Shown piece after piece: positions 4,929 to 41,540 of a stretch of DNA of 64,000 bases; position 1 is the stretch's first letter; each line of letters starts with the position of its first letter. Where the stretch lies: contig CM049307.1 in assembly GCA_026874595.1 (NCBI GenBank), positions 27,130,362 through 27,194,361 of the forward strand, in the 5' to 3' direction. The position numbers were made by a program, and so were the translations under genes. This stretch comes from Sipunculus nudus. Lineage: Eukaryota; Annelida; Sipuncula; Golfingiida; Sipunculidae. The notes below the pieces were generated by a model, which was not told the DNA's origin, made no database searches, and worked only from the letters and a program-made list of their open reading frames with translations.

Positions 4929-5363
4929 TCCTCCCTGGCTGCCATCAAGAAATACATCACCGCCAACTTCAAGGCTGACGCCGCCAAGCTGGCTCCATTC
5001 ATCCGCCGCTTCTTGAAGAAAGCTGTTGCTGACGGTAAGCTGGTGCAGGTGAAAGGCACTGGTGCTGCAGGCTCCTTCCGCTTGAGTCAGACTGCCAAGG
5101 CCGAGAAGCCCAAGGAGGCCAAGAAGCCAGGTCGCCCTAAGACTGTCGAGAGACCCGCTGTCATGAAAGCCAAGAAACCGACCGCCGCCAAGAAGTCGCC
5201 CAAGAAACCCGCGGCCATGAAACCAACCGAAAAGAAGAAGACAAAGTCCGACCCCAAGAAGGCAGCCAAGTCCAAGAAATCGACAGCCAAGAAACCCGCG
5301 GCTAAGAAACCACCAGCCAAAAAAGCCAAGAAACCGGCAGCAAAGAAACTTGTCAAGAAGTAA
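4929..5363 (+). pseudogene. Linker histone H1, 5'-truncated by element insertion (H1-A)
   Basis: This is the 3' part of an H1 gene, starting at the serine pair of the globular domain (codon about 42 in the intact paralogs: [14 protein letters not shown]). It keeps the rest of the winged helix with the GTGAAGSF loop and the lysine/alanine/proline tail with a KSPKK motif, and ends at TAA 5361-5363. The promoter, the N-terminal tail and helix 1 are missing because foldback element copy 1 abuts at 4928. The frame continues upstream without a stop into the element (to 4716), which would give an element-H1 fusion of up to 215 codons, or 193 from the ATG at 4785. With half of the globular domain gone it is unlikely to bind nucleosomes as H1 does. 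Its 3' flank is closest to that of H1-G. Confidence 0.85.
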
Positions 5364-13587: not shown

Positions 13588-15528
13588 TGTAACATTCTTG
13601 CCCTTTGACCTTGCCGGGGAGGGGCATCAACACTGATTGACAGTCGATATAGAGATGCCCCAGAGCCAATCACAGGCAGCTAAGGACTTTGCCCTCTGTC
13701 CCTCTGGGATAAAACCCCCTTGCCCTGGCGATTCTCCCTCTCTTGGATCATCGAGCAGTGGACCCCTATGCCTGCCCTCTGTGGCAGGCAGAGGGTATAT
13801 GGCTTCTTTTTCACCTTGGGGTTGGTTTTACGACAATGTCGGCTACCCAGGTGAAGAGCCACCCACATCCAAAGAGCAGTCCTTTTATCTAGTCTGGTGA
13901 GTATCTTTCTGTTTCATTTATAAGTCTAGATAATAATATGCAGTCCTGATATTTTGAAGGTTTAGGCTCTAAATTTTATTCCAGTAAAAAGTGTTATTTT
14001 ATCTCTTTAAATTGTGCGAGTGCATGTTGCCCAAGCCCAATTTCCTCCCAGAATAAATAAGCAGCTACATCTGGCGAGCATGTCATCGGTTGTTACTAAC
14101 AGCTAGGAGACGAATTCTGGTAAATAAATTGCTTATTTTGAGTTAATTCTGTTTTTTTTTAGCATCAGTATATACTTAAGGGGCTTAGGTTGTAAAATTC
14201 TGCTAAATAAGCGATCTATTCAAATGGAAACATAGTAACAGGTTTAAAAATGCTTGACTTTCATTTCTTAAGAAAATTTTTTATTTAGTGCACTCGTTTT
14301 GTGAACTAGAATAGGGGCTGTTTATAAATGTAGGCCCGTCTCTTATTAAAGTATAATGCGTATTATTTTATTTGAAAAGGCTAGTACTACCTTAGACTCC
14401 TTTTAATAAACCATTATAGTAATTTGCCTTTCTTTGGCTATGAAACGGCGTATACATTAGAAAACAGTGTATGCTTCAATAATCATCTTCTAAATTCAAA
14501 ATCATTGGTAGGTGTATACAGTAATCCCACAGTACTGAACCTTTATCTGTACACTTTACAGTCAATACTACGGTTATTGGGAATTTTCATTGTGGATAAA
14601 CCAGCATATTGGTTTTACATTCTTATAAAATGAAAGCCTTAATATCAATGTATTTCTAATTACTTCAGTCCTTAATTGAAATTAAATCCCACAGTATTAA
14701 ACTTGAATTGTGTGTTCCCACTAGGAGGTTATATATAAAAGAAAAAGAAAATAAAAAAAAAGTGTCCTATAATTATGTTATAAATTATGTGTAACTAAGA
14801 TGTAAAAGCAAGAGAAATAAAACGTGCTATGTGTACCTTTAGGGGATGTGTAAAAACTGTAACACGCATCTTCTTATTATATTGGGCGTAAGTGTCATCC
14901 GCAAATATTTCATGACCCCCATACAAACAGCCAGGCAACTTGTGCCTGCAATTGTATATATGTCATATTTTACTTATAATGAATGACCTTTTCTTTGCAA
15001 AATTAATCAGTTGATCAGATTTATGTATAGAACAACTTACAGGACTTGATCTAAATTAGCTGGATTATACTGAAATAAAAGGAACAGCTCAATCTTTTAT
15101 TATGCGTAGCTGTCTCTTGAATAAAAGTAACATAGCTTTTATTTTGTACATATGTATAGATGCTGTAGAATGGTACATATTTAAACTGTTATGTTCTGCA
15201 TGTACATATTGAATGAATACTACTGAAATGGTAATTGTGAATGTATTTTGATAGAAATATCAGTTACATATCTTATTATTCCAATCTGGATTGTCTGTTA
15301 AAAATATTTTATAAGCCTGATCTACATTCAAATGTTATTTTAAAACCCGATATTCAGTGATCTTTATGTTTAAACAAAATGGGTTTCTTGTGTAAAGAAA
15401 TTTAGCCTACATGCTATTTTTTAAAACAAGGCTGTATTTCATTTACCTTAAACAGTGGTTTAAAAACCTGTGCACATGTAACTCAAAGGAACGACCGTTT
15501 GACCAAAAGTAACAAGGGTCATAAGTCA
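13588..15528. mobile_element. 1.94-kb foreign insertion in the H1-E promoter, family uncertain (possible solo LTR)
   Basis: Sequence found once in the window that interrupts an otherwise continuous H1 promoter between GACAGGT and ACATAGCCGAGC. The ends read TGTAAC...GTCA, the TG...CA form seen in LTRs. The first 320 bp hold promoter-like features: a CCAAT box (AGCCAATCAC near 13664), a TATA-like GATAAAA near 13708, and a splice-donor-like CTGGTGAGTATC with the junction at 13896. The rest is AT-rich with several AATAAA sequences. No clear target duplication is seen, and about one H1 base is missing at the junction. No protein is recognisable. It may instead be a fragment of another gene brought in by rearrangement. 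Confidence 0.45.
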
Positions 15529-15672: not shown

Positions 15673-16230
15673 ATGTCTGACCCCGCTGCTCCCGTCAAGG
15701 CTAGGAAGCCAGCCAAAACGAGGGCTACGCCAAGCCATCCACCTATAGCCAGCATGGTAGTAGCTGCCGTCAAGTCTCTGAAGGAGCGGAAAGGCTCTTC
15801 CCTGGTTGCCATCAAGAAATACATCACCGCCAACTTCAAGGCTGACGCCGCCAAGCTGGCTCCATTCATGGGCCGCTTCTTGAAGAAAGCTGTTACTGAC
15901 GGTTAGTTGGTGCAGGTGAAAGGCACTGGTGCTGCAGGCTCCTTCCGCTTGAGTCAGACTGCCAAGGCCGAGAAGCCCAAGGAGGCAAAGAAGCCAGGTC
16001 GCCCTAAAACTGTCGAGAAACCCGCTACCAAGAAAGCCAAGAAACCGACCGCCGCCGAGAAGTCGCCCAAGAAATCCGCGGCCAGGAAACCAGCCGAGAA
16101 GAAGAAGACAAAGTCCGACCCAAAGAAGGCAGCCAAGTCCAAGAAATCGACAGCTAAGAAACCCGCGGCTAAGAAACCACCAGCCAAGAAAGCCAAGAAA
16201 CCGGCAGCAAAGCAACTTGTCAAGAAGTAA
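15673..16230 (+). pseudogene. Linker histone H1 with a nonsense codon (H1-E)
   Basis: Full-length H1 copy that would encode 185 residues, but codon 78 is TAG (15904-15906) where the paralogs have AAG (Lys, DGKLVQ). The break falls inside the winged helix, before the GTGAAGSF wing, so the product would be a 77-residue fragment. Further departures at conserved sites (I66M, R67G, A75T, A45V) support relaxed selection. The reading frame after the stop is still open to TAA 16228-16230, so it decayed recently. Its promoter is split by the insertion at 13588-15528, which may have come first and silenced it. Confidence 0.93.
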
Positions 16231-18022: not shown

Positions 18023-18248
18023 ATGTCTGACGCCGCTGCTCCCGTCAAGGCTAAGAAGCCAGCCAAAACGAGGGCTACGCCAAGCCGAGAAACCCGCGGC
18101 CAGGAAAACAGCAGAGAAGAAGAAGCCAAATTCCGACCCCAAGAAGGCAACCAAGTCCAGGAAATCGACAGCCAAGAAACCCGCGGCTAAGAAACCACCA
18201 GCCAAGAAAACCAAGAAACCGGCAGCAAAGAAACTTGTCAAGAAGTAA
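18023..18248 (+). pseudogene. Linker histone H1 with internal deletion (H1-F)
   Basis: The first 20 codons of H1 ([20 protein letters not shown]) are joined after 18086 to the middle of the C-terminal tail, removing about 330 bp that cover the whole globular domain. The junction reads GCCAAGCC then GAGAAACCCG; similar short GCC(C)AAG and GCCGAGAAG strings lie near both original edges, which fits slippage or a short-homology deletion. The frame is shifted after the junction and stops at 18188-18190, giving at most 55 codons. The original stop (18246-18248) and the stem-loop remain. It cannot act as a linker histone. Confidence 0.93.
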
Positions 18249-19983: not shown

Positions 19984-20050
19984 GGCCCCTGATTGACATG
20001 AGTTGATAACTCTCCGAGGTTGCAACACGATTAATTAACGGTAAAGCAAA

Positions 20051-20075
20051 ATGTCTGACGCCGCTGTTTCCGGCA
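20051..20075 (+). pseudogene. 5' stub of H1-G (codons 1-8), upstream of the element
   Basis: ATGTCTGACGCCGCTG is the normal H1 start, followed by TTTCCGGCA, which is the target-site copy, and then the element. The rest of the gene is at 40997-41540, about 20.9 kb away. Transcription from this promoter would run into the element's left terminal repeat. Confidence 0.9.
20065..20075 (+). repeat. Target-site duplication, left copy
   Basis: TGTTTCCGGCA here and TGTTCCCGGCA at 40997-41007 flank the element. Undisturbed paralogs read TGCTCCCGTCA at this place. Both flanking copies share the T at position 3 and the G at position 9 that the paralogs lack, so they look like two copies of one original site. 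Because CA/TG can be given to either flank or element, the duplication may be 7-11 bp; 9-11 is the most natural reading. Confidence 0.8.
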
Positions 20076-20360
20076 CGACTGTGAAGTTCGACGGACGTCC
20101 GACGTCCATTTTTCGTGAAAGTGCTCCGTGAATGCCTGCTATTCCTCCGCTTTTAGCCTGAAACATATTTCCCTGACCAGCCTTCTGTTCACCGCTTTGC
20201 AGTGTATTTCGCTGATCATCGCTGCCCTCAAGGCTTCGTCAAGACCGTGTATATCAAACGGCGCCAATACACGCTTTCCAACAGACAAATATGACTATTG
20301 ATAATACTAATAATGCGAGTATTATTCTTTTTTTTAAAAATCTGCTTGATATAAAAAATG
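20076..20360 (-). repeat. Left terminal inverted repeat of copy 2
   Basis: Inverted counterpart of 40713-40996, with the outer end CGACTGTGAAGTTCG at 20076. It differs from the right repeat at scattered positions. The frame open in both right-hand repeats is closed here by a stop (TAG in place of GAG at 20145-20147, read on the - strand). Confidence 0.88.
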
Positions 20361-23300
20361 TTATAAAATTTTAAATACGCTAAACAACCCTTCAAGTTTG
20401 GTATCAACAGAAAGTTCTTTTCACAGGTAGTCACATTTTTTAAAATAAATTTTAGAGAGGCATAGTGAGCGTTTTAGAGCAGTCAGGTACAACTGTTATT
20501 CATTTATTTTAATTTCGAGTGAATTTTAAAGTGTCATAAAATTTTAAATACGCTAATCAACCCATCAAGTTTGGTATCAACGGAAAGTACTTTTCACTGG
20601 TAGTTATATTGTATAAAAATTAGAGTGGCACAAGTGACCGTTGTTAGAGCAGTCAAATACGACTTTTATTAAAATTTTTAATTTAGCGTGAATTTTAAAG
20701 TGTCATAAAATGTTAGATACGCTAAAGAACCAATCAAGTTTGGTATCAACGGAAAGTACTTTTCACTGGTAGTCACATTCTATAAAAATTACAGTGGCAC
20801 AAGTGAGCGTTTTAGAGCAGCCGGATACAACTATTATTCATATTTTTAATTTCCCGTGGATTTTAAAGTGTTATATATATTTAAAAACGCTTAACAACCA
20901 ATCAAGTTTGGTATCAACGGAAAGTACTTTTCACTGGTAGTCCCATGGTATATAAATTAGAGTGGCACAAGTGAGCGTTTTAGAGCAGGCAGATACGACT
21001 ATTATTCATTTTTTTAATTTCTCTTGGATATTAAAGTGTTATATATTGTAAAATACGCTAAACAACCCATCAAGTTTGGTATCAACGGAAAGTACTTTGC
21101 ACTGGTAGTCCCATGGTATAAAAATCAGAGTGGCACAAGTGAGCGTTTTAGAGCAGCCTGATACGACTATTATTCATTTTTTTAATTTCTCTTGGATATT
21201 AAAGTGTTATATATATTTTAAAACGCTTAACAACCAATCAAGTTTGGTATCAACGGAAAGTACTTTTCACTGGTGGTCCCATGGTATATAAATTAGAGTG
21301 GCACAAGTGAGCGTTTTAGAGCAGGCAGATACGACTATTATTCATTTTTTTTAATTTCCCGTGGATTTTAAAGTGTTATATATATTTAAAAACGCTTAAC
21401 AACCCATCAAGTTTGGTATCAACGGAAAGTACTTTTCACTGGTAGTCACATGTTATATAAATTAGAGTGGCACAAGTGAGCGTTTTAGAGCAGGCAGATA
21501 CGACTATTATTCATTTTTTTAATTTCTCTTGGATATTAAAGTGTTATATATATTTAAAAACGCTTAACAACCAATCAAGTTTGGTATCAACGGAAAGTAC
21601 TTTTCACTGGTGGTCCCATGGTATATAAATTAGAGTGGCACAAGTGAGCGTTTTAGAGCAGGCAGATACGACTAATATTCAATTTTTTTTTAATTTCCCG
21701 TGGATTTTAAAGTGTTATATATATTTAAATACGCTTAACAACCCATCAAGTTTGGTATCAACGGAAAGTACTTTTCACTGGTAGTCACATGGTATAAAAA
21801 TCAGAGTGGCACAAGTGAGCGTTTTAGAGCAGCCTGATACGACTATTATTCATTTTTTTTTATTTCCCGTGGATTTTAAAGTGTTATATATATTTAAATA
21901 CGCTTAACAACTCATCAAGTTTGGTATCAACGGAAAGTACTTTTCACTGGTAGTCACATGGTATAAAAATTAGAGTGGCACAAGTGAGCCTTTTAGAGCA
22001 GGCGGATACGACTAATATTCAATTTTTTTTCAATTTCTCGTTGATTTTAAAGTGTTATATATATTTAAATACGCTTAACAACTCATCAAGTTTAGTATCA
22101 ACGGAAAGTACTTTTCACTGGTAGTCACATGGTATAAAAATTAGAGTGGCACAAGTGAGCGTTTTAGAGCAGTCAGATACGACTTTTATTCATTTTTTTA
22201 ATTTCTCTTGGATTTAAAAGTGTTATATATCTTTAAATACGCTAAACAACCCATCAAGTTTGGTATCAACGGAAAGTACTTTTCACTGGTAGTCCCATGG
22301 TATAAAAATCAGAGTGGCACAAGTGACCGTTTTAGAGCAGTCAAATACGACTATTATTCATTTTTTTTTAAATTAAGCGTGAGTTATAAAGTGTTATATA
22401 TCTTAAAATACGCTAAAGAACCCATCAAGTTTGGTATCAACGGAAAGTACTTTTCACTGGTAGTCACATGGTATAAAAATTAGAGTGGCACAAGTGAGCG
22501 TTTTAGAGCAGGCGGATACGACTAATATTCAATTTTTTTTCAATTTCTCGTTGATTTTAAAGTGTTATATATATTGAAATACGCTAAACAACTCATCAAG
22601 TTTGGTATCAACGGAAAGTACTTTGCACTGGTAGTCACATTCTATAAAAATTACAGTGGCACAAGTGAGCGTTTTAGAGCAGCCGGATACAACTATTATT
22701 CATTTTTTTTAATTTCCCGTGGATTTTAAAGTGTTATATATATTTAAAAACGCTTAACAACCAATCAAGTTTGGTATCAACGGAAAGTACTTTTCACTGG
22801 TAGTCCCATGGTATATAAATTAGAGTGGCACAAGTGAGCGTTTTAGAGCAGGCAGATACGACTATTATTCATTTTTTAATTTCTCTTGGATATTAAAGTG
22901 TTATATATTGTAAAATACGCTAAACAACCCATCAAGTTTGGTATCAACGGAAAGTACTTTTCACTGGTAGTCCCATGGTATATAAATTAGAGTGGCACAA
23001 GTGATCGTTTTAGAGCAGGCGGATACGACTAATATTCAATTTTTTTTCAATTTCGCGTTGATTTTAAAGTGTTATATATATTTAAATACGCTTAACAACC
23101 CATCAAGTTTGGTATCAACGGAAAGTACTTTTCACTGGTAGTCCCAAGGTATAAAAATCAGAGTGGCACAAGTGAGCGTTTTAGAGCAGCCTGATACGAC
23201 TATTATTCATTTTTTTTAATTTCCCGTGGATTTTAAAGTGTTATATATATTTAAAAACGCTTAACAACCCATCAAGTTTGGTATCAACGGAAAGTACTTT

Positions 23301-26300
23301 TCACTGGTAGTCACATGGTATATAAATTAGAGTGGCACAAGTGAGCGTTTTAGAGCAGGCAGATACGACTATTATTCATTTTTTTAATTTCTCTTGGATA
23401 TTAAAGTGTTATATTTATTTAAAAACGCTTAACAACCAATCAAGTTTGGTATCAACGGAAAGTACTTTTCACTGGTAGTCCCATGGTATATAAATTAGAG
23501 TGGCACAAGTGAGCGTTTTAGAGCAGGCAGATACGACTATTATTCATTTTTTTAATTTCTCTTGGATATTAAAGTGTTATATATTGTAAAATACGCTAAA
23601 CAACCCATCAAGTTTGGTATCAACGGAAAGTACTTTGCACTGGTAGTCCCATGGTATAAAAATCAGAGTGGCACAAGTGAGCGTTTTAGAGCAGCCTGAT
23701 ACGACTATTATTCATTTTTTTTTAATTTCCCGTGGATTTTAAAGTGTTATATATATTTAAATACGCTTAACAACTCATCAAGTTTGGTATCAATGGAAAG
23801 TACTTTTCACTGGTAGTTATATTGTATAAAAATTAGAGTGGCACAAGTGACCGTTGTTAGAGCAGTCAAATACGACTTTTATTCAATTTTTTTAATTTAG
23901 CGTGAATTTTAAAGTATTATACATCTTTAAATACGCTAAACAACCAATCAAGTTTGGTATCAACGGAAAGAACTTTTCACTGGTAGTCTTATGGTATGAA
24001 TTTTAGAGTGGCACAAGTGAGCGTTTTAGAGCAGTCAAGTACGACTTTAATTCCAATTTTTTTAATTTAGCGTGAATTTTAAAGTATTATACATCTTTAA
24101 ATACGCTAAACAAGCCATCAAGTTTGGTATCAACGGAAAGGACTTTTACTGGTATTCACATGGTTTGAATTTTAGAGTGGCACAAGTGTGCGTTTTAGAG
24201 CAGTCAGATACGACTATTATTCATTTTTTTTAAATTTAGCGTGAACTTTAAAGTGTTATTAATCTTTAAATACGCGAAACAACCCATCACGTTTGGTATA
24301 AACGGAAAGAACATTTTAATGGTAGTCACATGGTATGAATTTTAGAGTGGCACAAGTGAGCGTTTAAGAGCAGTCAAATACGACTATTATTCAATTATCT
24401 TTTAATTTAGCGTGAATTTTAAAGTGTTATAAAATTTTAATTACGCTAAACAACCCATCAAGTTTGGTATTAACGGAAAGTACTTTGCACTGGTAGTCCC
24501 ATGGTATATAAATAAGAGTGGCACAAGTGAGCGTTTTAGAGCAGCCTAATACGACTATTATTCATTTTTTTTAATTTCCCGTGGATTTTAAAGTGTTATA
24601 TATATTTAAAAACCCTTAACAACCCATCAAGTTTGATATCAACTGAAATAACTTTTCACTGGTAGTCCCATGGTATATAAATTAGACTGGCACAAGTGAG
24701 CGTTTAAGAGCAGCCTGATACGACTATTATTCATTTTTTTTAATTTCCTGTGGATTTTAAAGTGTTATATATATTTAAAAACCCTTAACAACCCATCAAG
24801 TTTGGTATCAACGGAAAGTACTTTTCACTGGTAGTCACATGGTATAAAAATTAGAGTGGCACAAGTGAGCGTTTTAGAGCAGTCCGATACGACTATTATT
24901 CATTTTTTTAATTTCTCTTGGATTTAAAAGTGTTATATATCTTTAAATACGCTAAACAACCCATCAAGTTTGGTATCAACGGAAAGTACTTTTCACTGGT
25001 AGTCCCATGGTATAAAAATTAGAGTGGCACAAGTGAGCGTTTTAGAGAAGCCTGATACGACTATTATTCATTTTTTTTATTTCCCGTGGATTTTAAAGTG
25101 TTATATATATTTAATTACGCTTAACAACTCATCAGGTTTGGTACCAACGGAAAGTATTTTTCACTGGTAGTCACATGGTATAAAAATTAGAGTGGCACAA
25201 GTGAGCGTTTTAGAGCAGTCAGATACGACTATTATTCATTTTTTTAAATTTCTCTTGGATTTAAAAGTGTTATTTATCTTAAAAATACGCAAAACAACCC
25301 ATCAAGTTTGGTATCAACGGAAAGTACTTTGCACTGGTAGTCCCATGGTATATAAATTAGAGTGGCACAAGTGAGCGTTTTAGAGCAGCCTGATACGACT
25401 ATTATTCATTTTTTTTTTATTTCCCGTGGATTTTAAAGTGTTATATATATTTAAATACGCTTAACAACTCATCAAGTTTGGTACCAACGGAAAGTATTTT
25501 TCACTGGTAGTCACATGGTATAAAAATTAGAGTGGCACAAGTGAGCGTTTTAGAGAATTCAGATACGACTATTATTCATTTTTTTTTTTTAATTTCGCGT
25601 TGATTTTAAAGTGTTATATATATTTAAATACGCTTAACAACCCATCAAGTTTGGTATCAACGGAAAGAACTTTGCACTGGTAGTCACATGGTATAAAAAT
25701 CAGAGTGGCACAAGTGAGCGTTTTAGAGCAGTCCGATACGACTGTTATTCATTTTTTTAAATTTCTCTTGGATTTAAAAGTGTTATATATCTTTAAATAC
25801 GCTAAACAACCCATCGAGTTTGGTATCAACGGAAAGTACTTTTCACTGGTGGTCACATGGTATAAAAATCAGAGTGGCACAAGTGACCGTTTTAGAGCAG
25901 CCTGATACGACTATTATTCATTTTTTTTAATTGTTATATATATTTAAATACGCTTAACAACTCATCAAGTTTGGTACCAACGGAAAGTATTTTTCACTGG
26001 TAGTCACATGGTATAAAAATTAGAGTGGCACAAGTGAGCGTTTTAGAGCAGTCAGATACGACTATTATTCATTATTTAAATTTCTCTTGGATTTAAAAGT
26101 GTTATTTATTTTAAAATACGCTAAACAACCCATCAAGTTTGGTATCAACGGAAAGTACTTTTCACTGGTAGTCCCATGGTATAAAAATCAGAGTGGCACA
26201 AGTGAGCGTTTTAGAGCAGCATGATACGACTATTATTCATTTTTTTAATTTCCCGTGGATTTTAGAGTGTTATATATATTTAAAAACGCTTAACAACCCA

Positions 26301-28188
26301 TCAAGTTTGGTATCAACGGAAAGTACTTTGCACTGGTAGTCCCATGGTATAAAAATTAGAGTGGCACAAGTGAGCGTTTTAGAGCAGCCTGATACGACTA
26401 TTATTCATTTTTTTTATTTCCCGTGGATTTTAAAGTGTTATATATATTTAAATACGCTTAACAACTCATCATGTTTGGTACCAACGGAAAGTACTTTTCA
26501 CTGGTATATACATGGTATAAAAATTAGAGTGGCACAAGTGAGCTTTTAGAGCAGCCTGATACGACCAATATTCAATTTTTTTTCAATTTCGCGTTGATTT
26601 TAAAGTGTTATATATATTTAAATACGCTTAACAACTCATCAAGTTTGGTACCAACGGAAAGTATTTTTCACTGGTAGTCACATGGTATAAAAATTAGAGT
26701 GGCACAAGTGAGCGTTTTAGAGCAGTCAGATACGACTATTATTCATTATTTAAATTTCTCTTGGATTTAAAAGTGTTATATATTTTAAAATACGCTAAAC
26801 AACCCATCAAGTTTGGTATCAACGGAAAGTACTTTTCACTGGTAGTCCCATGGTATAAAAATTAGAGTGGCACAAGTGAGCGTTTTAGAGCAGCCTGATA
26901 GGACTATTATTCATTTTTTTTTATTTCCCGTGGATTTTAAAGTGTTATATATATTTAAATACGCTTAACAACTCATCAAGTTTGGTACCAACGGAAAGCA
27001 TTTTTCACTGGTAGTCACATGGTATAAAAATTAGAGTGGCACAAGTGAGCGTTTTAGAGCAGTCCGATACGACTATTATTCATTTTTTTAAATTTCTCTT
27101 GGATTTAAAAGTGTTATATATCTTTAAATACGCTAAACAACCCATCGAGTTTGGTATCAACGGAAAGTACTTTTCACTGGTGGTCACATGGTATAAAAAT
27201 CAGAGTGGCACAAGTGACCGTTTTAGAGCAGCCTGATACGACTATTATTCATTTTTTTTAATTTTCTGTGGATTTTAAAGTGTTATATATATTTAAATAC
27301 GCTTAACAACTCATCAAGTTTGGTACCAACGGAAAGTACTTTTCACTGGTAGTCACATGGTATAAAAATTAGAGTGGCACAAGTGAGCGTTTTAGAGCAG
27401 TCAGATACGACTATTATTCATTTTTTTTTATTTCTCTTGGATTTAAAAGTGTTATATATTTTAAAATACGCTAAACAACCCATCAAGTTTGGTATCGACG
27501 GAAAGTACTTTTCACCGGTAGTCCCATGGTATAAAAATTAGAGTGGCACAAGTGAGCGTTTTAGAGCAGCCTGATACGACTATTATTCATTTTTTTTTTA
27601 TTTCCCGTGGATTTTAAAGTGTTATATATATTTAAATACGCTTAACAACTCATCAAGTTTGGTACCAACGGAAAGTACTTTTCACTGGTAGTCACATGAT
27701 ATAAAAATTAGAGTGGCACAAGTGAGCGTTTTAGAGCAGGGGGATACGACTAATATTCAATTTTTTTTTCAATTTCGCGTTGATTTTAAAGTGTTATATA
27801 TATTTAAATACGCTTAACAACTCATCAAGTTTGGTATCAACGGAAAGTACTTTTCACTGGTAGTCACATGGTATAAAAATTAGAGTGGCACAAGTGAGCG
27901 TTTTAGAGCAGTCAGATCCGACTATTATTCTTTTTTTCTTAAATTTCTCTTGGATTTAAAAGTGTTACATATTTTAAAATACGCTAAACAACCCATCAAG
28001 TTTGGTATCAACGGAAAGTACTTTTCACTGGTGGTCCCATGGTATAAAAATTAGAGTGGCACAAGTGAGCGTTTTAGAGCAGCCTGATACGACTATTATT
28101 CATTTTTTTTATTTCCCGTGGATTTTAAAGTGTTATATATATTTAAATACGCTTAACAACTCATCAAGTTTGGTATCAACGGAAAGTA
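20361..28188 (+). repeat. Satellite left arm, forward monomers
   Basis: About 45 tandem monomers read as ATCAAGTTTGGTATCAACGG ... GGCACAAGTGAGCGTTTTAGAGCAG ... ATTATTCATTTTTT. The period is about 168-173 bp. Monomers close to the terminal repeat and a patch at 23800-24460 carry the 'GCGTGAATTTTAAAG' subtype; the rest carry 'CCCGTGGATTTTAAAG', 'CTCTTGGAT' or 'CGCGTTGATTTTAAAG'. Frames of up to about 90 codons recur with the repeat (MAQVSVLEQSDTT...) and are not genes. Confidence 0.95.
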
Positions 28189-28196
28189 ACGGAATC
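28186..28196. other. Inversion junction between satellite arms
   Basis: A forward monomer breaks off after GGAAAGTA (to 28188) and a reverse monomer starts in its middle at about 28194 (ATCATCGCGAAATTG). Only about five bases belong to neither. The two arms are therefore fused directly, without a spacer or gene. Confidence 0.85.
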
Positions 28197-31100
28197 ATCG
28201 CGAAATTGAAAAATATTGAATATTAGTCGTATCCGCCTGCTCTAAAACGGTCACTTGTGCCACTCTGATTTTTATACCATGGGACTACCAGTGAAAAGTA
28301 CTTTCCGTTGATACCAAACTTGATGGGTTGTTAAGGGTTTTTAAATATATATAACACTTTAAAATCCACGGGAAATTTAAAAAAAATGAATAATAGTCGT
28401 ATCTGACTGCTCTAAAACGATCACTTGTCCCACTCTGATTTTTATACCATGGGACTACCAGTGAAAAGTACTTTCCGTTGATACCAAACTTGATTGGTTG
28501 TTAAGCGTATTTAAATATATATAACACTTTAAAATCAACGCTAAATTGAAAAAAAATTGAATATTAGTCGTATCCGCCTGCTCTAAAACGATCACTTGTG
28601 CCACTCTAATTTATATACCATGGGACTACCAGTGAAAAGTACTTTCCGTTGATACCAAACTTGATGAGTTGTTAAGCGTATTTAAATATATATAACACTT
28701 TAAAATCAACACGAAATTGAAAAAAAATTGAATATTTGTCGTATCCGCCTGCTCTACAACGCTCACTTGTGCCACTCTAATTTTTATACCATGGGACTAC
28801 CAGTGAAAAATACTTTCCGTTGGTACCAAACTTGATGAGTTGTTAAGCGTATTTAAATATATATAACACTTTAAAATCCACGGGAAATAAAAAAAAAATG
28901 AATAATAGTCGTATCAGGCTGCTCTAAAACGCTCACTTGTGCCACTCTAATTTTTATACCATGGGACTACCAGTGAAAAGTACTTTCCGTTGATACCAAA
29001 CTTGATGGGTTGTTTAGCGTATTTAAAGATATATAACACTTTTAAATCCAAGAGAAATTTAAAAAAATGAATAATAGTCGTATCTGACTGCTCTAAAACG
29101 CTTTCTTGTGCCACTCTAATTTTTATACCATGTGACTACCAGTGAAAAATACTTTCCGTTGGTACCAAACTTGATGAGTTGTTAAGCGTATTTAAATATA
29201 TATAACACTTTAAAATCCACGGGAAATAAAAAAAAATGAATAATAGTCGTATCAGGCTGCTCTAAAACGCTCACTTGTGCCACTCTAATTTATATACCAT
29301 GGGACTACCAGTGCAAAGTACTTTCCGTTGATACCAAACTTGATGGGTTGTTTAGCGTATTTTAAAATATATAACACTTTTAAATCCATTGGAAATAAAA
29401 AAAAATGAATAATAGTCGTATCAGGCTGCTCTAAAACGCTCACTTGTGCCACTCTAATTTTTATACCATGGGACTACCGGTGAAAAGTACTTTCCGTCGA
29501 TTCCAAACTTGATGGGTTGTTTAGCGTATTTTAAAATATATAACACTTTTAAATCCAAGAGAAATTAAAAAAAAATGAATAATAGTCGTATCTTACTGCT
29601 CTAAAACGCTCACTTGTGCCACTCTAATTTTTATACCATGTGACTACCAGTGAAAAGTACTTTCCGTTGGTACCAAACTTGATGAGTTGTTAAGCGTATT
29701 TAAATATATATAACACTTTAAAATCCACAGAAAATTAAAAAAAAATGTTATATTTAAAGATTAATAACACTTTAAAATTCACGCTAAATTAAAAAAAATG
29801 AATAATAGTCGTATCTGACTGCTCTAAAACGCTCACTTGTGCCACTCTAATTTTTATACCATGTGACTACCAGTGAAAAGTACTTTCCCTTGATACCAAA
29901 CTTGATGAGTTGTTAAGCGTATTTAAATATATATCACACTTTAAAATCAACGCAAAATTGAAAAAAAATTGAATATTAGTCGTATCCGCCTGCTCTAAAA
30001 CGCTCACTTTTCCCACTCTAAAATTCATACCATGTGACTACCAGTGAAAAGTACTTTCCGTTGGTACCAAACTTGATGAGTTGTTAAGCGTATTTAAATA
30101 TATATAACACTTTAAAATCAACGCGAAATTGAAAAAAAAATGAATATTAGTCGTATCCGCCTGCTCTAAAACGGTCACTTGTGCCACTCTGATTTTTATA
30201 CCATGGGACAACCAGTGAAAAGTACTTTCCGTTGATACCAAACTTGATGGGTTGTTAAGGGTTATTAAATATATATTACACTTTAAAATCCACGGGAAAT
30301 TTAAAAAAAAATGAATAATAGTCGTATCTGACTGCTCTAAAACGCTCACTTGTGCCACTCTGATTTTTATACCATGTGACTACCAGTGAAAAGTACTTTC
30401 CGTTGATACCAAACTTGATGAGTTGTTAAGCGTATTTAAATATATATCACACTTTAAAATCAACGCGAAATTGAAAAAAAAATTGAATATAAGTCGTATC
30501 CCCCTGCTCTAAAACGCTCACTTCTGCCACTCTAATTTTTATACCATGGGACTACCAGTGAAAAGTACTTTCCGTTGATACCAAACTTGATGGGTTGTTA
30601 AGCGTATTTAAATATATATAACACTTTAAAATCAACGCTAAATTGAAAAAAAATTGAATATTAGTCGTATCCGCCTGCTCTAAAACGATCACTTGTGCCA
30701 CTCTAATTTATATACCATGGGACTACCAGTGAAAAGTACTTTCCGTTGATACCAAACTTGATGAGTTGTTAAGCGTATTTAAATATATATAACACTTTAA
30801 AATCAACACGAAATTGAAAAAAAATTGAATATTTGTCGTATCCGCCTGCTCTACAACGCTCACTTGTGCCACTCTAATTTTTATACCATGGGACTACCAG
30901 TGAAAAATACTTTCCGTTGGTACCAAACTTGATGAGTTGTTAAGCGTATTTAAATATATATAACACTTTAAAATCCACGGGAAATAAAAAAAAAATGAAT
31001 AATAGTCGTATCAGGCTGCTCTAAAACGCTCACTTGTGCCACTCTAATTTTTATACCATGGGACTACCAGTGAAAAGTACTTTCCGTTGATACCAAACTT

Positions 31101-34100
31101 GATCGGTTGTTTAGCGTATTTAAAGATATATAACACTTTTAAATCCAAGAGAAATTTAAAAAAATGAATAATAGTCGTATCTGACTGCTCTAAAACGCTC
31201 ACTTGTGCCACTCTAATTTTTATACCATGTGACTACCAGTGAAAAATACTTTCCGTTGGTACCAAACTTGATGAGTTGTTAAGCGTATTTAAATATATAT
31301 AACACTTTAAAATCCACGGGAAATAAAAAAAAATGAATAATAGTCGTATCAGGCTGCTCTAAAACGCTCACTTGTGCCACTCTAATTTATATACCATGGG
31401 ACTACCAGTGCAAAGTACTTTCCGTTGATACCAAACTTGATGGGTTGTTTAGCGTATTTTAAAATATATAACACTTTTAAATCCATTGGAAATAAAAAAA
31501 AATGAATAATAGTCGTATCAGGCTGCTCTAAAACGCTCACTTGTGCCACTCTAATTTTTATACCATGGGACTACCGGTGAAAAGTACTTTCCGTCGATTC
31601 CAAACTTGATGGGTTGTTTAGCGTATTTTAAAATATATAACACTTTTAAATCCAAGAGAAATTAAAAAAAAATGAATAATAGTCGTATCTTACTGCTCTA
31701 AAACGCTCACTTGTGCCACTCTAATTTTTATACCATGTGACTACCAGTGAAAAGTACTTTCCGTTGGTACCAAACTTGATGAGTTGTTAAGCGTATTTAA
31801 ATATATATAACACTTTAAAATCCACAGAAAATTAAAAAAAAATGTTATATTTAAAGATTAATAACACTTTAAAATTCACGCTAAATTAAAAAAAATGAAT
31901 AATAGTCGTATCTGACTGCTCTAAAACGCTCACTTGTGCCACTCTAATTTTTATACCATGTGACTACCAGTGAAAAGTACTTTCCCTTGATACCAAACTT
32001 GATGAGTTGTTAAGCGTATTTAAATATATATCACACTTTAAAATCAACGCAAAATTGAAAAAAAAATTGAACATTAGTCGTATCCGCCTGCTCTAAAACG
32101 CTCACTTTTCCCACTCTAAAATTCATACCATGTGACTACCAGTGAAAAGTACTTTCCGTTGGTACCAAACTTGATGAGTTGTTAAGCGTATTTAAATATA
32201 TATAACACTTTAAAATCAACGCGAAATTGAAAAAAAATTGAATAATAGTCGTATCCGCCTGCTCTAAAACGGTCACTTGTGCCACTCTGATTTTTATACC
32301 ATGGGACAACCAGTGAAAAGTACTTTCCGTTGATACCAAACTTGATGGGTTGTTAAGGGTTATTAAATATATATTACACTTTAAAATCCACGGGAAATTT
32401 AAAAAAAAATGAATAATAGTCGTATCTGACTGCTCTAAAACGCTCACTTGTGCCACTCTGATTTTTATACCATGGGACTACCAGTGAAAAGTACTTTCCC
32501 TTGATACCAAACTTGATGAGTTGTTAAGCGTATTTAAATATATATCACACTTTAAAATCAACGCGAAATTGAAAAAAAATTGAATATAAGTCGTATCCCC
32601 CTGCTCTAAAACGCTCACTTGTGCCACTCTAATTTTTATATCATGTGACTACCAGTGAAAAGTACTTTCCGTTGGTACCAAACTTGATGAGTTGTTAAGC
32701 GTATTTAAATATATATAACACTTTAAAATCCAAGGGAAATAAAAAAAAATGAATAATAGTCGTATCAGGCTGCTCTAAAACGCTCACTTGTGCCACTCTA
32801 ATTTTTATACCATGGGACTACCAGTGAAAAGTACTTTCCGTTGATACCAAACTTGATGGGTTGTTTAGCGTATTTTAAAATATATAACACTTTTAAATCC
32901 AAGAGAAATTTAAAAAAAAATGAATAATAGTCGTATCTGACTGCTCTAAAACGCTCACTTGTGCCACTCTAATTTTTATACCATGTGACTACCAGTGAAA
33001 AGTACTTTCCGTTGATACCAAACTTGATGAGTTGTTAAGCGTATTTAAATATATATAACACTTTAAAATCCATGGAAAATAAAAAAAAATGAATAATAGT
33101 CGTATCAGGCTGCTCTAAAACGCTCACTTGTGCCACTCTAATTTTTATACCATGGGACTACCAGTGAAAAGGACTTTCCGTTGATACCAAACTTGATGGG
33201 TTGTTTAGCGTATTTTAAAATATATAACACTTTTAAATCCAAGAGAAATTTAAAAAAAATGAATCATAGTCGTATCTGACTGCTCTAAAACGCTCACTTG
33301 TGCCACTCTAATTTTTATACCATGTGACTACCAGTGAAAAGTACTTTCCCTTGATACCAAACTTGATGAGTTGTTAAGCGTATTTAAATATATATCACAC
33401 TTTAAAATCAACGCGAAATTGAAAAAAAAATTGAATATCAGTCGTATCCCCCTGCTCTCAAACGCTCACTTGTGCCACTCTAATTTTTATATCATGTGAC
33501 TACCAGTGAAAAGTACTTTCCGTTGGTACCAAACTTGATGAGTTGTTAAGCGTATTTAAATATATATAACACTTTAAAGTCCACGGGAAATAAAAAAAAT
33601 GAATAATAGTCGTATCAGGCTGCTCTAAAACGCTCATTTGTGCCACTCTAATTTTTATACCATGGGACTACCAGTGAAAAGTACTTTCCGTTGATACCAA
33701 ACTTGATGGGTTGTTTAGCGTAATTTAAAATATATAACACTTTTAAATCCAAGAGAAATTAAAAAAAAATGAATAATAGTCGTATCTGACTGCTCTAAAA
33801 CGCTCACTTGTGCCACTCTAATTTTTATATCATGTGACTACCAGTGAAAAGTACTTTCCGTTGGTACCAAACTTGATGAGTTGTTAAGCGTATTTAAATA
33901 TATATAACACTTTAAAATCCACGGGAAATAAAAAAAAATGAATAATAGTCGTATCAGGCTGCTCTAAAACGCTCACTTGTGCCACTCTAATTTTTATACC
34001 ATGGGACTACCAGTGAAAAGTACTTTCCGTTGATACCAAACTTGATGGGTTGTTTAGCGTATTTTAAAATATATAACACTTTTAAATCCAAGAGAAATTT

Positions 34101-37100
34101 AAAAAAAATGAATAATAGTCGTATCTGACTGCTCTAAAACGCTCACTTGTGCCACTCTAATTTTTATACCATGTGACTACCAGTGAAAAGTACTTTCCGT
34201 TGATACCAAACTTGATGAGTTGTTAAGCGTATTTAAATATATATAACACTTTAAAATCCACGGGAAATAAAAAAAAATGAATAATAGTCGTATCAGGCTG
34301 CTCTAAAACGCTCACTTGTGCCACTCTAATTTTTATACCATGGGACTACCATTGAAAAGGACTTTCCGTTGATACCAAACTTGATGGGTTGTTTAGCGTA
34401 TTTTAAAATATATAACACTTTTAAATCCAAGAGAAATTTAAAAAAAATGAATCATAGTCGTATCTGACTGCTCTAAAACGCTCACTTGTGCCACTCTAAT
34501 TTTTATACCATGTGACTACCAGTGAAAAGTACTTTCCCTTGATACCAAACTTGATGAGTTGTTAAGCGTATTTTAATATATATCACACTTTAAAATCAAC
34601 GCGAAATTGAAAAAAAAATTGAATATCAGTCGTATCCCCCTGCTCTAAAACGCTCACTTGTGCCACTCTAATTTTTATATCATGTGACTACCAGTGAAAA
34701 GTACTTTCCGTTGGTACCAAACTTGATGAGTTGTTAAGCGTATTTAAATATATATAACACTTTAAAGTCCACGGGAAATAAAAAAAATGAATAATAGTCG
34801 TATCAGGCTGCTCTAAAACGCTCATTTGTGCCACTCTAATTTTTATACCATGGGACTACCAGTGAAAAGTACTTTCCGTTGATACCAAACTTGATGGGTT
34901 GTTTAGCGTAATTTAAAATATATAACACTTTTAAATCCAAGAGAAATTAAAAAAAAATGAATAATAGTCGTATCTGACTGCTCTAAAACGCTCACTTGTG
35001 CCACTCTAATTTTTATACCATGTGACTACCAGTGAAAAGTACTTTCCATTGATACCAAACTTGATGAGTTGTTAAGCGTATTTAAATATATTTAACACTT
35101 TAAAATCCACGGGAAATAAAAAAAAATGAATAATAGTCGTATCAGGCTGCTCTAAAACGCTCACTTGTGCCACTCTAATTTATATACCATGGGACTACCA
35201 GTGCAAAGTTCTTTCCGTTTATACCAAACGTGATGGGTTGTTTAGCGTATTTAAAGATGTATAATACTTTAAAATTCACGCTAAATTAAAAAATTGAATA
35301 AAAGTCGTACTTGACTGCTCTAAAACGCTCACTTGTGCCACTCTAAAATTCATACCATGTGACTACCTGTTAAAAGTACTTTCCGTTGATACCAAACTTG
35401 ATGGGTTGTTTAGCGTATTTAAAGATGTATAATACTTTAAAATTCACGCTAAATTAAAAAAATTGAATAAAAGTCGTACTTGACTGCTCTAAAACGGTCA
35501 CTTGTGCCACTTTAAAATTCATACCATGTGACTACCGGTAAAAAGTTCTTTCCATTTATACCAAACTTGATGGGTTGTTTAGCGTATTTATATATTAATA
35601 ACACTTTAAAATTCACGCTAAATTAAAAAAAAATGAATAATAGTCGTATCTGACTGCTCTAAAACGCTCACTTGTGCCACTCTAAAATTCATACCATGTG
35701 AATACCACTAAAAAACCCTTTCCGTTGATACCAAACATGATGGGTTGTTTAGCGTAATTAAAATTTTATAACACTTTAAAATTCACGCTAAATTAAAATA
35801 AAATTGAATAATAGTCGTACCTGACTGCTCTAAAACGGTCTCTTGTGCCACTCTAAAATTCATACCATGTGAATACCACTAAAAAGTCCTTTCCGTTGAT
35901 ACCAAACATGATGGGTTGTTTAGCGTAATTAAAGATTAATAACATTTTAAAATTCACGCTAAATTTTAAAAAAAATGAATAATAGTCGTATCTGACTGCT
36001 CTAAAACGCTCACTTGTGCCACTCTAAAATTCATACCATAAGACTACCAGTGAAAAGTTCTTTCCGTTGATACCAAACTTGATGGGTTGTTTAGCGTAAT
36101 TAAAATTTTATATCACTTTAAAATTCACGCTAAATTAAAATAAAATTGAATAAGAGTCGTATTTGACAGCTCTAAAACACTCACTTGTGCCACTCTAAAA
36201 TTCATACCATGTGAATACCAGTAAAAAGTCCTTTCCGTTGATACCAAACTTGATGGGTTGTTTAGTGTATTTAAAGATGTATAATACTATAAAATTCACG
36301 CTAAATTAAAAAAAAAATTAATAACAGTCGTACTTGACTGCTCTAAAACGCTCACTTGTGCCACTCTAAAATTCATACCATGTGAATACCAGTAAAAAGT
36401 TCTTTCCGTTTATACCAAACGTGATGGGTTGTTTAGTGTATTTAAAGATTAATAACACTTTAAAATTCACGCTAAATTAAAAAAAAATGAATAATAGTCG
36501 TATCTGACTGCTCTAAAACGCATACTTGTGCCACTCTAAAATTCATACCATGTGACTACCAGTGAAAAATACTTTCCGTTGGTACCAAACTTGATGAGTT
36601 GTTAAGCGTATTTAAATATATATAACACTTTAAAAACCACGGGAAATAAAAAAAAATGAATAATAGTCGTATCAAGCTGCTCTAAAACGGTCACTTGTGC
36701 CACTCTGATTTTTATACCATGTGACCACCAGTGAAAAGTACTTTCCGTTGATACCAAACTCGATGGGTTGTTTAGCGTATTTAAAGATATATAACACTTT
36801 TAAATCCACGGGAAATTAAAAAAAATGAATAATAGTCGTATCAGGCTGCTCTAAAACGCTCACTTGTGCCACACTGATTTTTATACCATGGGACTACCAG
36901 TGAAAAGTACTTTCCGTTGATACCAAACTTGATGAGTTGTTAAGCGTATTTTAAAATATATAACACTTTAAAATCAACGCGAAATTGAAAAAAATGAATA
37001 ATAGTCGTATCTGACTGCTCTAAAACGCTCACTTGTGCCACTCTAATTTTTATATCATGTGACTAGCAGTGAAAAGTACTTTCCGTTGGTACCAAACTTG

Positions 37101-40100
37101 ATGAGTTGTTAAGCGTATTTAAATATATATAACACTTTAAAATCCACGGGAAATAAAAAAAAATGAATAATAGTCGTATCAGGCTGCTCTAAAACGCTCA
37201 CTTGTGCCACTCTAATTTTTATACCATGGGACTACCAGTGAAAAGTACTTTCCGTTGATACCAAACTTGATGGGTTGTTTAGCGTATTTTAAAATATATA
37301 ACACTTTTAAATCCAAGAGAAATTTTAAAAAAATGAATAATAGTCGTATCAGGCTGCTCTAAAACGCTCACTTGTGCCACTCTGATTTTTATACCATGGG
37401 ACTACCAGTGAAAAGTACTTTCCGTTGATACCAAACTTGATGGGTTGTTAAGCGTATTTAAATATATATAACACTTTAAAAATCAACGCGAAATTGAAAA
37501 AAAAATTGAATATTAGTCGTATCCGCCTGCTCTATAACGCTCACTTGTGCCACTCTAATTTATATACCATGGGTCTACCAGTGCAAAGTTCTTTCCGTTG
37601 ATACAAAACTTGATGAGTTGTTAAGCGTATTTAAATATATATAACACTTTAAAATCAACGAGAAATTGAAAAAAAAAATGAATATTAGTCCTATCCGCCT
37701 TCTCTAAAACGCTCACTTGTGCCACTCTAAAATTCATACCATGTGAATACCAGTAAAAAGTACTTTCCGTTGATACCAAACTTGAAGGGTTGTTTAGCGT
37801 AATTAAAATTTTATAACACTTTAAAATTCACGCTAAATTTAAAAAAAAATGAATAATAGTCGTATCTGACTGCTCTAAAACGCTCACTTGTGCCACTCTA
37901 AAATTCATACCATAAGACTACCAGTGAAAAGTTCTTTCCGTTGATACCACACTTGATGGGTTGTTTAGCGTAATTAAAATTTTATATCACTTTAAAATTC
38001 ACGCTAAATTAAAATAAAATTGAATAATAGTCGTATTTGACTGCTCTAAAACACTCACTTGTGCCACTCTAAAATTCATACCATGTGAATACCAGTAAAA
38101 AGTCCTTTCCGTTGATACCAAACTTGATGGGTTGTTTAGCGTATTTAAAGATTAATAACACTTTAAAATTCACGCTAAATTTAAAAAAAAATGAATAATA
38201 GTCGTATCTGACTGCTCTAAAACGCTCACTTGTGCCACTCTAAAATTCATACCATAAGACTACCAGTGAAAAGTTCTTTCCGTTGATACCACACTTGATG
38301 GGTTGTTTAGCGTAATTAAAATTTTATATCACTTTAAAATTCACGCTAAATTAAAATAAAATTGAATAATAGTCGTATTTGACTGCTCTAAAACACTCAC
38401 TTGTGCCACTCTAAAATTCATACCATGTGAATACCAGTAAAAAGTCCTTTCCGTTGATACCAAACTTGATGGGTTGTTTAGTGTATTTAAAGATGAATAA
38501 TACTTTAAAATTCACGCTAAATTAAAAAAAAATTAATAACAGTCGTACTTGACTGCTCTAAAACGCTCACTTGTGCCACTCTAAAATTCATACCATGTGA
38601 AAACCAGTAAAAAGTTCTTTCCGTTTATACCAAACGTGATGGGTTGTTTAGCGTATTTAAAGATTAATAACACTTTAAAATTCACGCTAAATTAAAAAAA
38701 ATGAATAATAGTCGTATCTGACTGCTCTAAAACACTCACTTGTGCCACTCTAAAATTCATACCATGTGAATACCAGTAAAAAGTCCTTTCCGTTGATACC
38801 AAACTTGATGGCTTGTTTAGCGTATTTAAAGATGTATAATACTTTAAAATTCACGCTAAATTAAAAAATTGAATAAAAGTCGTACTTGACTGCTCTAAAA
38901 CGCTCACTTGTGCCACTCTAAAATTCATACCATGTGACTACCTGTTAAAAGTACTTTCCGTTGATACCAAACTTGATGGGTTGTTTAGCGTATTTAAAGA
39001 TGTATAATACTTTAAAATTCACGCTAAATTAAAAAAAATTGAATAAAAGTCGTACTTGACTGCTCTAAAACGGTCACTTGTGCCACTTTAAAATTCATAC
39101 CATGTGACTACCAGTAAAAAGTTCTTTCCATTTATACCAAACGTGATGGGTTGTTTAGCGTATTTAAAGAAGTATAATACTTTAAAATTCACGCTAAATT
39201 AAAAAAAAAATGAATAATAGTCGTATCTGACTGCTCTAAAACGCTCACTTGTGCCACTCTAAAATTCATACCATGTGAATACCACTAAAAAGTCCTTTCC
39301 GTTGATACCAAACATGATGGGTTGTTTAGCGTAATTAAAATTTTATAACACTTTAAAATTCACGCTAAATTAAAATAAAATTGAATAATAGTCGTACCTG
39401 ACTGCTCTAAAACGGTCTCTTGTGCCACTCTAAAATTCATACCATGTGACTACCAGTAAAAAGTTCTTTCCGTTGATACCAAATGTGATGGGTTGTTTAG
39501 CGTATTTAAAGATAAATAACACTTTAAAATTCACGCTAAATTTAAAAAATTTGAATAAAAGTCGTACTTGACTGCTCTAAAACGCTCACTTGTGCCACTC
39601 TAAAATTCATACCATAAGACTACCAGTGAAAAGTTCTTTCCGTTGATACCAAACTTGATGGGTTGTTTAGCGTAATTAAAATTTTATATCACTTTAAAAT
39701 TCACGCTAAATTAAAATAAAATTGAATAATAGTCGTATTGGACTGCTCTAAAACACTCACTTGTGCCACTCTAAAATTCATACCATGTGAATACCAGTAA
39801 AAAGTCCTTTCCGTTGATACCAAACTTGATGGGTTGTTTAGCGTATTTAAAGATGTATAACACTTTAAAATTCACGCTAAATTAAAAAAAAAATTAATAA
39901 GAGTCGTACTTGACTGCTCTAAAACGCTCACTTGTGCCACTCTAAAATTCATACCATGTGAATACCAGTAAAAAGTTATTTTCGTTTAAACCAAACGTGA
40001 TGGGTTGTTTAGCGTATTTAAAGATTAATAACACTTTAAAATTCACGCTAAATTAAAAAAAAAATGAATAATAGTCGTATCTGACTGCTCTAAAACGCAT

Positions 40101-40712
40101 ACTTGTGCCACTCTAAAATTCATACCATGTGAATACCAGTAAAAAGTCCTTTCCGTTGATACCAAACTTGATGGCTTGTTTAGCGTATTTAAAGATGTAT
40201 AATACTTTAAAATTCACGCTAAATTAAAAAATTTGAATAAAAGTCGTACTTGACTGCTCTAAAACGCTCACTTGTGCCACTCTAAAATTTATACCATGTG
40301 ACTACCTGTTAAAAGTACTTTCCGTTGATACCAAACTTGATGGGTTGTTTAGCGTAATTAAAATTTTATATCACTTTAAAATTCACGCTAAATTAAAATA
40401 AAATTAAATAAAAGTCGTATTTGATTGCTCTAAAACGCTCACTTGTGCCACTCTAAATTTCATACCATGTGACTACCAGTAAAAAATACTTTCCGTTCAT
40501 ACCATACTTTATGGGTTGTTTAGCGTAATTAAAATTTTATAACACTTTAAAATTCATGCTAAATTAAAATAAAATTGAATAAAAGTCGTATTTGACTTCT
40601 CTAAAACGCTCACTTGTGCCACTCTAAAATTCATACCATGCGACTACCTGTGAAAAGTACTTTCCGTTGATACCAAACTTGATGGGTTGTATAGCGTATT
40701 TAAAATTTTATA
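28194..40712 (-). repeat. Satellite right arm, reverse monomers, with higher-order repeats
   Basis: About 73 monomers in the opposite orientation. Larger repeats lie on top: about 28470-30560 and 30567-32660 are nearly identical at an offset of 2097-2098 bp (about 12 monomers), and about 32940-34130 and 34128-35320 match at an offset of about 1188 bp (7 monomers). A dimer of 343 bp repeats near 37911 and 38254. From about 35200 to the end the 'TTCACGCTAAATT' subtype dominates, except for an island at 36560-37700 of the inner subtypes. Confidence 0.95.
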
Positions 40713-40996
40713 ACATTTTTATATCAAGCAGATTTAAAAAAAAAGAATAATAGTCGCATTATTAGTATTATTAATAGTGAAATTTGTCTATTAGAAAGCG
40801 TGTATTGGCACCGTTTGATATACATGATCTTGACGAAGCCTTGAGGGCAGCGATGATCAGCGAAATACTCTGCAAAGCGGTGAACAGAAGGCTGGTCAGG
40901 GAAATATGTTTCCGGCTAAAAGCGGAGGAAGAGCAGGCATTCACGGAGCATTTTCACGAAAAATGGACGTCGGACGTCCGTCGAACTTCACAGTCG
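40713..40996 (+). repeat. Right terminal inverted repeat of copy 2
   Basis: Nearly identical to 4645-4928 and inverted to 20076-20360. It ends in CACAGTCG at 40996. An open frame runs from 40784 (TTG) to 41014, with its first ATG at 40853. Its peptide (…[17 protein letters not shown]…) matches no family I recognise. Confidence 0.88.
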
Positions 40997-41007
40997 TGTT
41001 CCCGGCA
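40997..41007 (+). repeat. Target-site duplication, right copy
   Basis: TGTTCCCGGCA, one mismatch to the left copy at 20065-20075. It is followed at once by AAGGCTAAGAAGCC, the normal continuation of the H1 N-terminal tail. Confidence 0.8.
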
Positions 41008-41540
41008 AGGCTAAGAAGCCAGCCAAAACGAGGGCTACGCCAAGCCATCCACCTGTAGCCAGCATGGTAGTGGCTGCCGTCAAGTCTCTGAAGAAGCGGA
41101 AAGGCTCCTCCCTGGCTGCCATCAAGAAATACATCACCGCCAACTTCAAGGCTAACGCCGCCAAGCTGGCTCCATTCATCCGCCGCTTCTTGAAGAAAGC
41201 TGTTGCTGACGGTAAGCTGGTGCAGGTGAAAGGCACTGGTGCTGCAGGCTCCTTCCGCTTGAGTCAGACTGCCAAGGCCGAGAAGCCCAAGGAGGCCAAG
41301 AAGCCAGGTCGCCCTAAGACTGTCGAGAGACCCGCTGTCATGAAAGCCAAGAAACCGACCGCCGCCAAGAAGTCGCCCAAGAAACCCGCGGCCAGGAAAC
41401 CAGCCGAGAAGAAGAAGCCAAATTCCGACCCCAAGAAGGCAGCCAAATCCAGGAAATCGACAGCCAAGAAACCCGCGGCTAAGAAACCACCAGCCAAGAA
41501 AGCCAAGAAACCGGCAGCAAAGAAACTTGTCAAGAAGTAA
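40997..41540 (+). pseudogene. 3' part of H1-G, downstream of the element
   Basis: H1 sequence from codon about 5 to the stop at 41538-41540, holding the rest of the N-terminal tail, the whole globular domain (with A→T-type changes such as KANAAK for KADAAK) and the lysine-rich tail. It has lost its promoter and start codon to the insertion. The first in-frame ATG is Met 28 of the globular domain (41064), giving at most 158 codons. Apart from the insertion the coding frame has no stop, so the insertion is the main damage and is probably not ancient. Together with 20051-20075 it rebuilds one full H1 locus. Confidence 0.92.

Follow-up and report, generated by a model that had tools for sequence, protein, structure and literature searches.

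How satellite arrays reach new sites among genes is an open question. The window analysed here, a 64,000-nucleotide stretch of DNA that carries a tandem histone H1 cluster, offers a concrete vehicle for such arrays, with its two ends, a duplicated target site and one further insertion, and suggests that satellite arrays can travel through the genome as the arms of a transposon. The reading that we favour, and consider highly probable, is that the locus holds a non-autonomous cut-and-paste (TIR) DNA transposon of the foldback type, with satellite arms, with ends that are ~238-bp unique domains and with a likely Mutator-like enzyme. At this locus, where tandem histone H1 genes were hit twice independently, two questions also become open to test: do long arrays move as a whole or lengthen once inserted, and is a satellite retained because it functions as a transposon end?

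A 20,923-bp insertion in a histone H1 gene

In the H1 cluster, where the gene starts at 6937, 9270 and 11607 lie ~2.3 kb apart and an intact copy matches Pfam Linker_histone (E 2e-28), one gene is broken after codon 8 by an insert of 20,923 bp, hereafter the first element (20075-40997). The 5′ part of this gene (codons 1-8; 20051-20074, forward strand) runs through 20074 and H1 sequence restarts at 40998, so that the two flanks overlap by 9 bp. The left copy of this target-site duplication, GTTTCCGGC (20066-20074, forward strand), and the right copy, GTTCCCGGC (40998-41006, forward strand), fall in H1 codons 6-8 and differ by one base (8 of 9 identical). The 3′ part of the same gene (41007-41540, forward strand), whose intact paralogue matches Linker_histone, is open in translation as far as its stop codon, and joining the flanks with a single 9-bp repeat yields an open H1 frame (22 aa). 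When the left copy was aligned with the five uninterrupted H1 starts of the window, these read GCTCCC[G/A]TC at the duplication site, whereas both flanks have T at position 2 and G at position 8, bases absent from all five. A match at 8 of 9 positions has a chance of ~1e-4 by a naive calculation with equal base frequencies; because both flanks are H1, the exact 9-bp overlap and the two private bases are better evidence than this figure. The initial annotation had placed the insertion within an H1 gene, with H1 sequence on both outer sides, and the overlap and the open joined frame confirm this. Judged from the sequence, the overlap reads as the mark of a single integration event.

The two inverted ends of the first element start with ACGACTGTGAAGTTCG and are identical in 269 of 286 aligned columns of their terminal part. 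A blastn search with 20030-20420 against the window (E up to 1e-3) found the outer part of this query in two further places, both inverted: at 40998-40654 (94.2% over 347 bp) and at 4929-4586 (93.9% over 346 bp). Each end carries ~238 bp unlike the satellite. On the left, a comparison of three ends places this unique outer domain at 20075-20312 (forward strand), with satellite similarity setting in near 20313; on the right, the end comparison places it at 40760-40997 (reverse strand; inner boundary approximate). Inward of 20313 the end is a diverged monomer, so the inverted repeat continues into the arms, ~285 bp of it standing ahead of the long arrays. The inverted terminal repeats of ~285 bp proposed earlier are borne out by the 94.2% match and the 269 of 286 identical columns, and the element is complete with both ends, although the limits first given for it (20076-40996) were one base short on each side. 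Folding of four terminal stretches was no better than that of shuffled sequences (z 0.29, −0.23, −0.45 and 0.08).

Two satellite arms without a unique centre

Tandem-repeat analysis of the interior resolved a left array of a 168-bp unit (20355-28188; 46.4 copies) and a right array of a 171-bp unit (28199-40756; 73.2 copies), in opposite orientation as the initial annotation had claimed. Taken from the unique domains inward, the left arm comprises ~47 monomers of ~169 bp (20313-28188, forward strand) and the right arm, which contains a block duplication, ~73 monomers of ~170 bp (28199-40759, reverse strand; outer boundary approximate). The arms meet at a 10-bp junction, ACGGAATCAT (28189-28198), where the orientation inverts, and the claimed lack of a unique centre thus holds. 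The first six of these 10 bases repeat letters of the neighbouring monomer, and the arms may have been joined by end-joining with templated filler. Among open reading frames of at least 95 aa (ATG, GTG or TTG start; introns ignored), none inside the element exceeded 106 aa, and no gene or transposase was found there.

Both arms bear traces of their internal history. A segment of 3,633 bp in the right arm recurs at an offset of 2,097 bp with 96.8% identity, and single monomers inside the duplicated block are identical. Over 2,258 bp the innermost left arm is colinear with a central part of the right arm (95.35%). Monomer order, compared arm against arm, exceeded all of 100 shuffles at both thresholds used (0.329 against a null maximum of 0.177, and 0.580 against 0.404); at the lower threshold the reversed monomer order also reached 0.513. 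Length variants occur in both arms: a 151-bp monomer in the left arm (25814-25964), and, in the duplicated block, two 223-bp monomers of which one is a copy of the other (29683-29905 and 31780-32002).

A second element and the history of the arrays

The inverted match at 4929-4586 belongs to a second element, absent from the initial annotation, whose right end and arm (1-4929) lie in another H1 gene. Its satellite arm (1-4691, reverse strand; ~27 monomers; outer boundary approximate) reaches base 1 of the window and is cut there, its left end and duplication lying beyond the window; its right end (4692-4929, reverse strand; inner boundary approximate) is followed by the 3′ part of the second interrupted H1 gene (4930-5363, forward strand). 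This right end matches that of the first element in 280 of 286 columns and stops at the same terminal base (CAGTCGT) at a different H1 position, the junction lying ~100-109 bp deeper in the coding sequence. Since the two insertions occupy different positions in different H1 genes, the second is not a simple copy made by tandem duplication of H1. The foldback-type transposon with satellite arms that had been proposed is accordingly supported by the paired ends, the 9-bp duplication, the comparison with empty sites and this second insertion of the same end. Neither insertion is dated by the H1 coding sequence: compared with intact copies, the interrupted halves have dN of 0.018-0.040 and dS of 0.016-0.042, values no larger, or hardly so, than those between two intact copies (dN 0.050, dS 0.039).

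Comparison of the three ends also bears on their age. The left end of the first element matches the right end of the second in 267 of 287 columns. Within the initial 300 columns of the alignment, 12 substitutions distinguish the left end from the pair of right ends, whereas private substitutions number four in the second right end and one in the first (12 against 1, binomial P = 0.003; the first right end included one extra flanking base in this count). Both ends of one insertion are equally old since that insertion, so most of the difference between left and right should be older, assuming no later conversion. The left and right ends probably differed from each other by the time of insertion, as in a mobile unit whose two ends are stable.

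The end of the second element lies in frame with the remainder of its H1 gene, forming a chimeric 215-aa open reading frame with a TTG start (4716-5363). Gene capture by this end was considered and is not supported: its 72-aa open frame had no Pfam match at E up to 5, and against solved structures it gave one chance-level match (E 1.4).

We cut 144 monomers from the arrays (46 from the left arm, 72 from the right arm and 26 from the second element), reading each array from its end inward. Average-linkage clustering separated 47 outer-type monomers (two clusters pooled) from 97 inner-type monomers, and both right arms showed the same order of end, outer-type monomers and inner-type monomers. 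The first 18 of the 72 monomers in the right arm of the first element were of the outer type, with eight more in a second block; in the second element the first 15 of 26 were of the outer type, followed by inner-type monomers only; and the left arm had two outer-type monomers at its end and four in a block further in. The monomer tree moves one monomer of each right arm to the inner group. In each of the three arrays, type switches were fewer than in every one of 10,000 shuffles. Inner-type monomers were about as similar between the elements (mean identity 0.920-0.921) as within them (0.919-0.925), and so were the outer-type monomers of the right arms (0.906 between, 0.904-0.910 within). In the tree, where support is weak for 71 of 128 inner branches, 19 changes between elements were required, six of them forced by well-supported branches; shuffles gave a mean of 24.3 changes and only one in 500 was as low as the observed value, so the elements are weakly clustered.

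Closest relatives, counted between sets of unequal size, lay within the first element for 110 of its 118 monomers (41 of 46 in the left arm, 69 of 72 in the right), with mean best identities of 0.976 (left arm) and 0.985 (right arm) within the element against 0.949 and 0.953 across. The 26 monomers of the second element behaved otherwise, 10 being closer to others of their own array and 12 to the first element, with four ties. With set sizes matched, the mean best identity of left-arm monomers was still 0.008 higher against the right arm than against the second element. No 300-bp stretch at 95% was common to both elements. At the lower threshold, the monomer order of the second element exceeded 100 shuffles against the left arm (0.226 against 0.145) and the right arm (0.208 against 0.171); at a threshold of 0.94 it was marginal against the left arm (0.074 against a null maximum of 0.068) and not above shuffles against the right arm (0.067 against 0.088). 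These results support a common ancestor in which several monomer lineages already formed, at the least, a zoned array that moved with the ends; exchange between arrays could also account for the lineages that the elements have in common. The 110 within-element closest relatives indicate that, once separated, the arrays also underwent turnover and perhaps grew. Given this turnover within the elements and the later block duplication in the arms, the array may have had a different length at the moment of transposition.

The insertion might instead have been of a smaller foldback with only a few monomers per inverted repeat, the arrays then growing mostly in place; we regard this as unlikely. It agrees with our reading on the transposon and differs on whether the long arrays themselves transpose. 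The predominance of within-element relatives in the first element (110 of 118) speaks for it, as do the 3,633-bp stretch repeated at 96.8% with a 2,097-bp shift and, in the excerpted text of PMC4079207, the proposal that large Tetris arrays arise inside the element and disrupt its transposition; the several monomer lineages and the outer-to-inner zoning common to both elements tell against it, and so do the monomers of the second element, which are not closer to each other (10 of 26 within, 12 across, four ties).

Long satellite arrays are difficult to assemble, and separate arrays might have been misjoined or a chimeric palindromic read incorporated. This is very improbable, because both flanks form one target site, and because the arms match each other at 95.35% and the duplicated block at 96.8%, where a chimera or stutter would be near 100%. 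Such flanks are hard to obtain through misassembly, but the array lengths may still be wrong. A Helitron or Helentron with a satellite array, as in oysters, is scarcely credible here. Monomers of 160-180 bp dominate the tandem repeats of Crassostrea gigas (PMC7492417, in excerpt) and a mobile-element-associated array of 89 monomers has been reported (PMC8268682, in excerpt), so the Helentron satellites of that oyster resemble the present ones in unit length and in being borne by a mobile element. Helitrons, however, make no target-site duplication according to the same excerpt of PMC7492417, and the arrays of C. gigas Helentrons are described in the excerpts of PMC7492417 and PMC8268682 as lying between two modules, without such a duplication, and not as two inverted arms; here the insertion has a 9-bp duplication and long inverted ends.

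The foldback plan and its known relatives

We return to the satellite-armed foldback transposon as the preferred reading. Terminal inverted repeats together with a target-site duplication place the first element among TIR transposons, and long inverted repeats that hold tandem repeats place it among foldback elements. The sea urchin TU and Arabidopsis FARE foldbacks likewise have long modular inverted repeats and 8-9 bp duplications; to our knowledge, their inverted repeats are smaller and are without satellite-sized arrays. Foldbacks from sea urchin and Arabidopsis are also cited in PMC4079207, where most foldback elements are thought to be members of the Mutator superfamily. Mutator-like elements are marked by 8-10 bp duplications and inverted repeats of >100 bp (PMC5225508, in part), and the values here are 9 bp and ~285 bp. 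Mutator-type mobilization is likely but unproven, as judged from the lengths of the ends and of the duplication.

The closest likeness is to Tetris of Drosophila virilis, which we compared by its description in excerpts of PMC4079207, not by sequence. As in the first element, its inverted repeats combine an outer flanking domain with a tandem-repeat domain, and its complete copies have 8-9 bp duplications; its tandem-repeat units are ~220 bp, its known copies are without transposase, and it has been linked to satellite arrays that originated within it and reach 66 copies. There are also differences: the inverted repeats of Tetris are at most 1,735 bp in these excerpts, against ~8.1 and 12.8 kb here, which is about five to seven times as long; a middle domain is present in Tetris and absent from the first element; and the excerpts treat the 66-copy arrays of Tetris as satellite arrays and not as the arms of an element with two complete ends. 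Among the matches listed from open-licence PMC papers, as far as their excerpts go, there was no description of a satellite-armed foldback of such size, Tetris being the closest. The suggestion that no family of this architecture is known at this scale needs qualification, since Tetris has the architecture in smaller form. What is new, by these partial descriptions, is the foldback plan with satellite-sized arms between two complete ends; the plan itself was already known. Muta1 of Aedes aegypti, a Mutator-like foldback whose terminus is an imperfect palindrome with a 10-bp motif, shares inverted repeats of >100 bp, subterminal tandem repeats and 8-9 bp duplications with the first element, but is only 3,198 bp long, has 145-bp inverted repeats with 12-bp repeats and encodes a transposase (excerpts of PMC5225508).

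We propose that the ~238-bp unique end domain would be recognized by a transposase supplied in trans, most likely Mutator-like given the 9-bp duplication and the long inverted ends. The satellite array extends each end as part of the inverted repeat, and the arms meet at a short junction without a coding centre, possibly a product of repair. The element entered the H1 gene, duplicating 9 bp of codons 6-8, and a second member of the family, seen by its right end, entered another H1 gene independently; the arms were later altered by block duplication within the element, as seen in the right arm. In Galileo, tandem repeats within the ends hold extra transposase-binding sites (PMC4079207, in excerpt), and by analogy extra predicted binding sites could explain why monomers are kept beside the end. 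Much more tentatively, the ~170-bp satellite might in this species itself be the inverted repeat of a giant Mutator-type foldback family that moves whole, with an array of at least 20 kb, into genes; its monomers would be multiplied transposase-binding sites, transposition would both build and spread the satellite, and standalone arrays would be elements whose ends have been lost.

Further searches returned no relatives. Five satellite strings had no occurrence in open-licence PMC papers, and no Rfam family was found at gathering score. The satellite pattern gave no match in viral or in genome contigs, and the end pattern none in viral contigs, collections of viral and prokaryote sequence that have little bearing on the host. 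The end-encoded peptide gave three stretches in the viral contigs, none confirmed, and the H1 protein 265 stretches in the genome contigs of the viral and prokaryote collections, none confirmed. The appearance of the H1 protein hints, as a guess, at a mollusc or other lophotrochozoan host.

The H1 cluster itself showed several minor features. A histone 3′ stem-loop-like motif, GCTCTTTTCAGAGC, which had no Rfam match at gathering score, occurs in seven places after H1 coding ends between 5395 and 41585, including those of both interrupted genes. An H1 copy at 15673-16230, for which only a partial open reading frame (15907-16230) was listed, is probably a pseudogene, and another copy (18023-18100) lacks ~330 bp of coding sequence, with a junction near 18081. 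Between H1 units, ~1.94 kb of DNA is inserted at 13588-15528, with no inverted ends in self-comparison.
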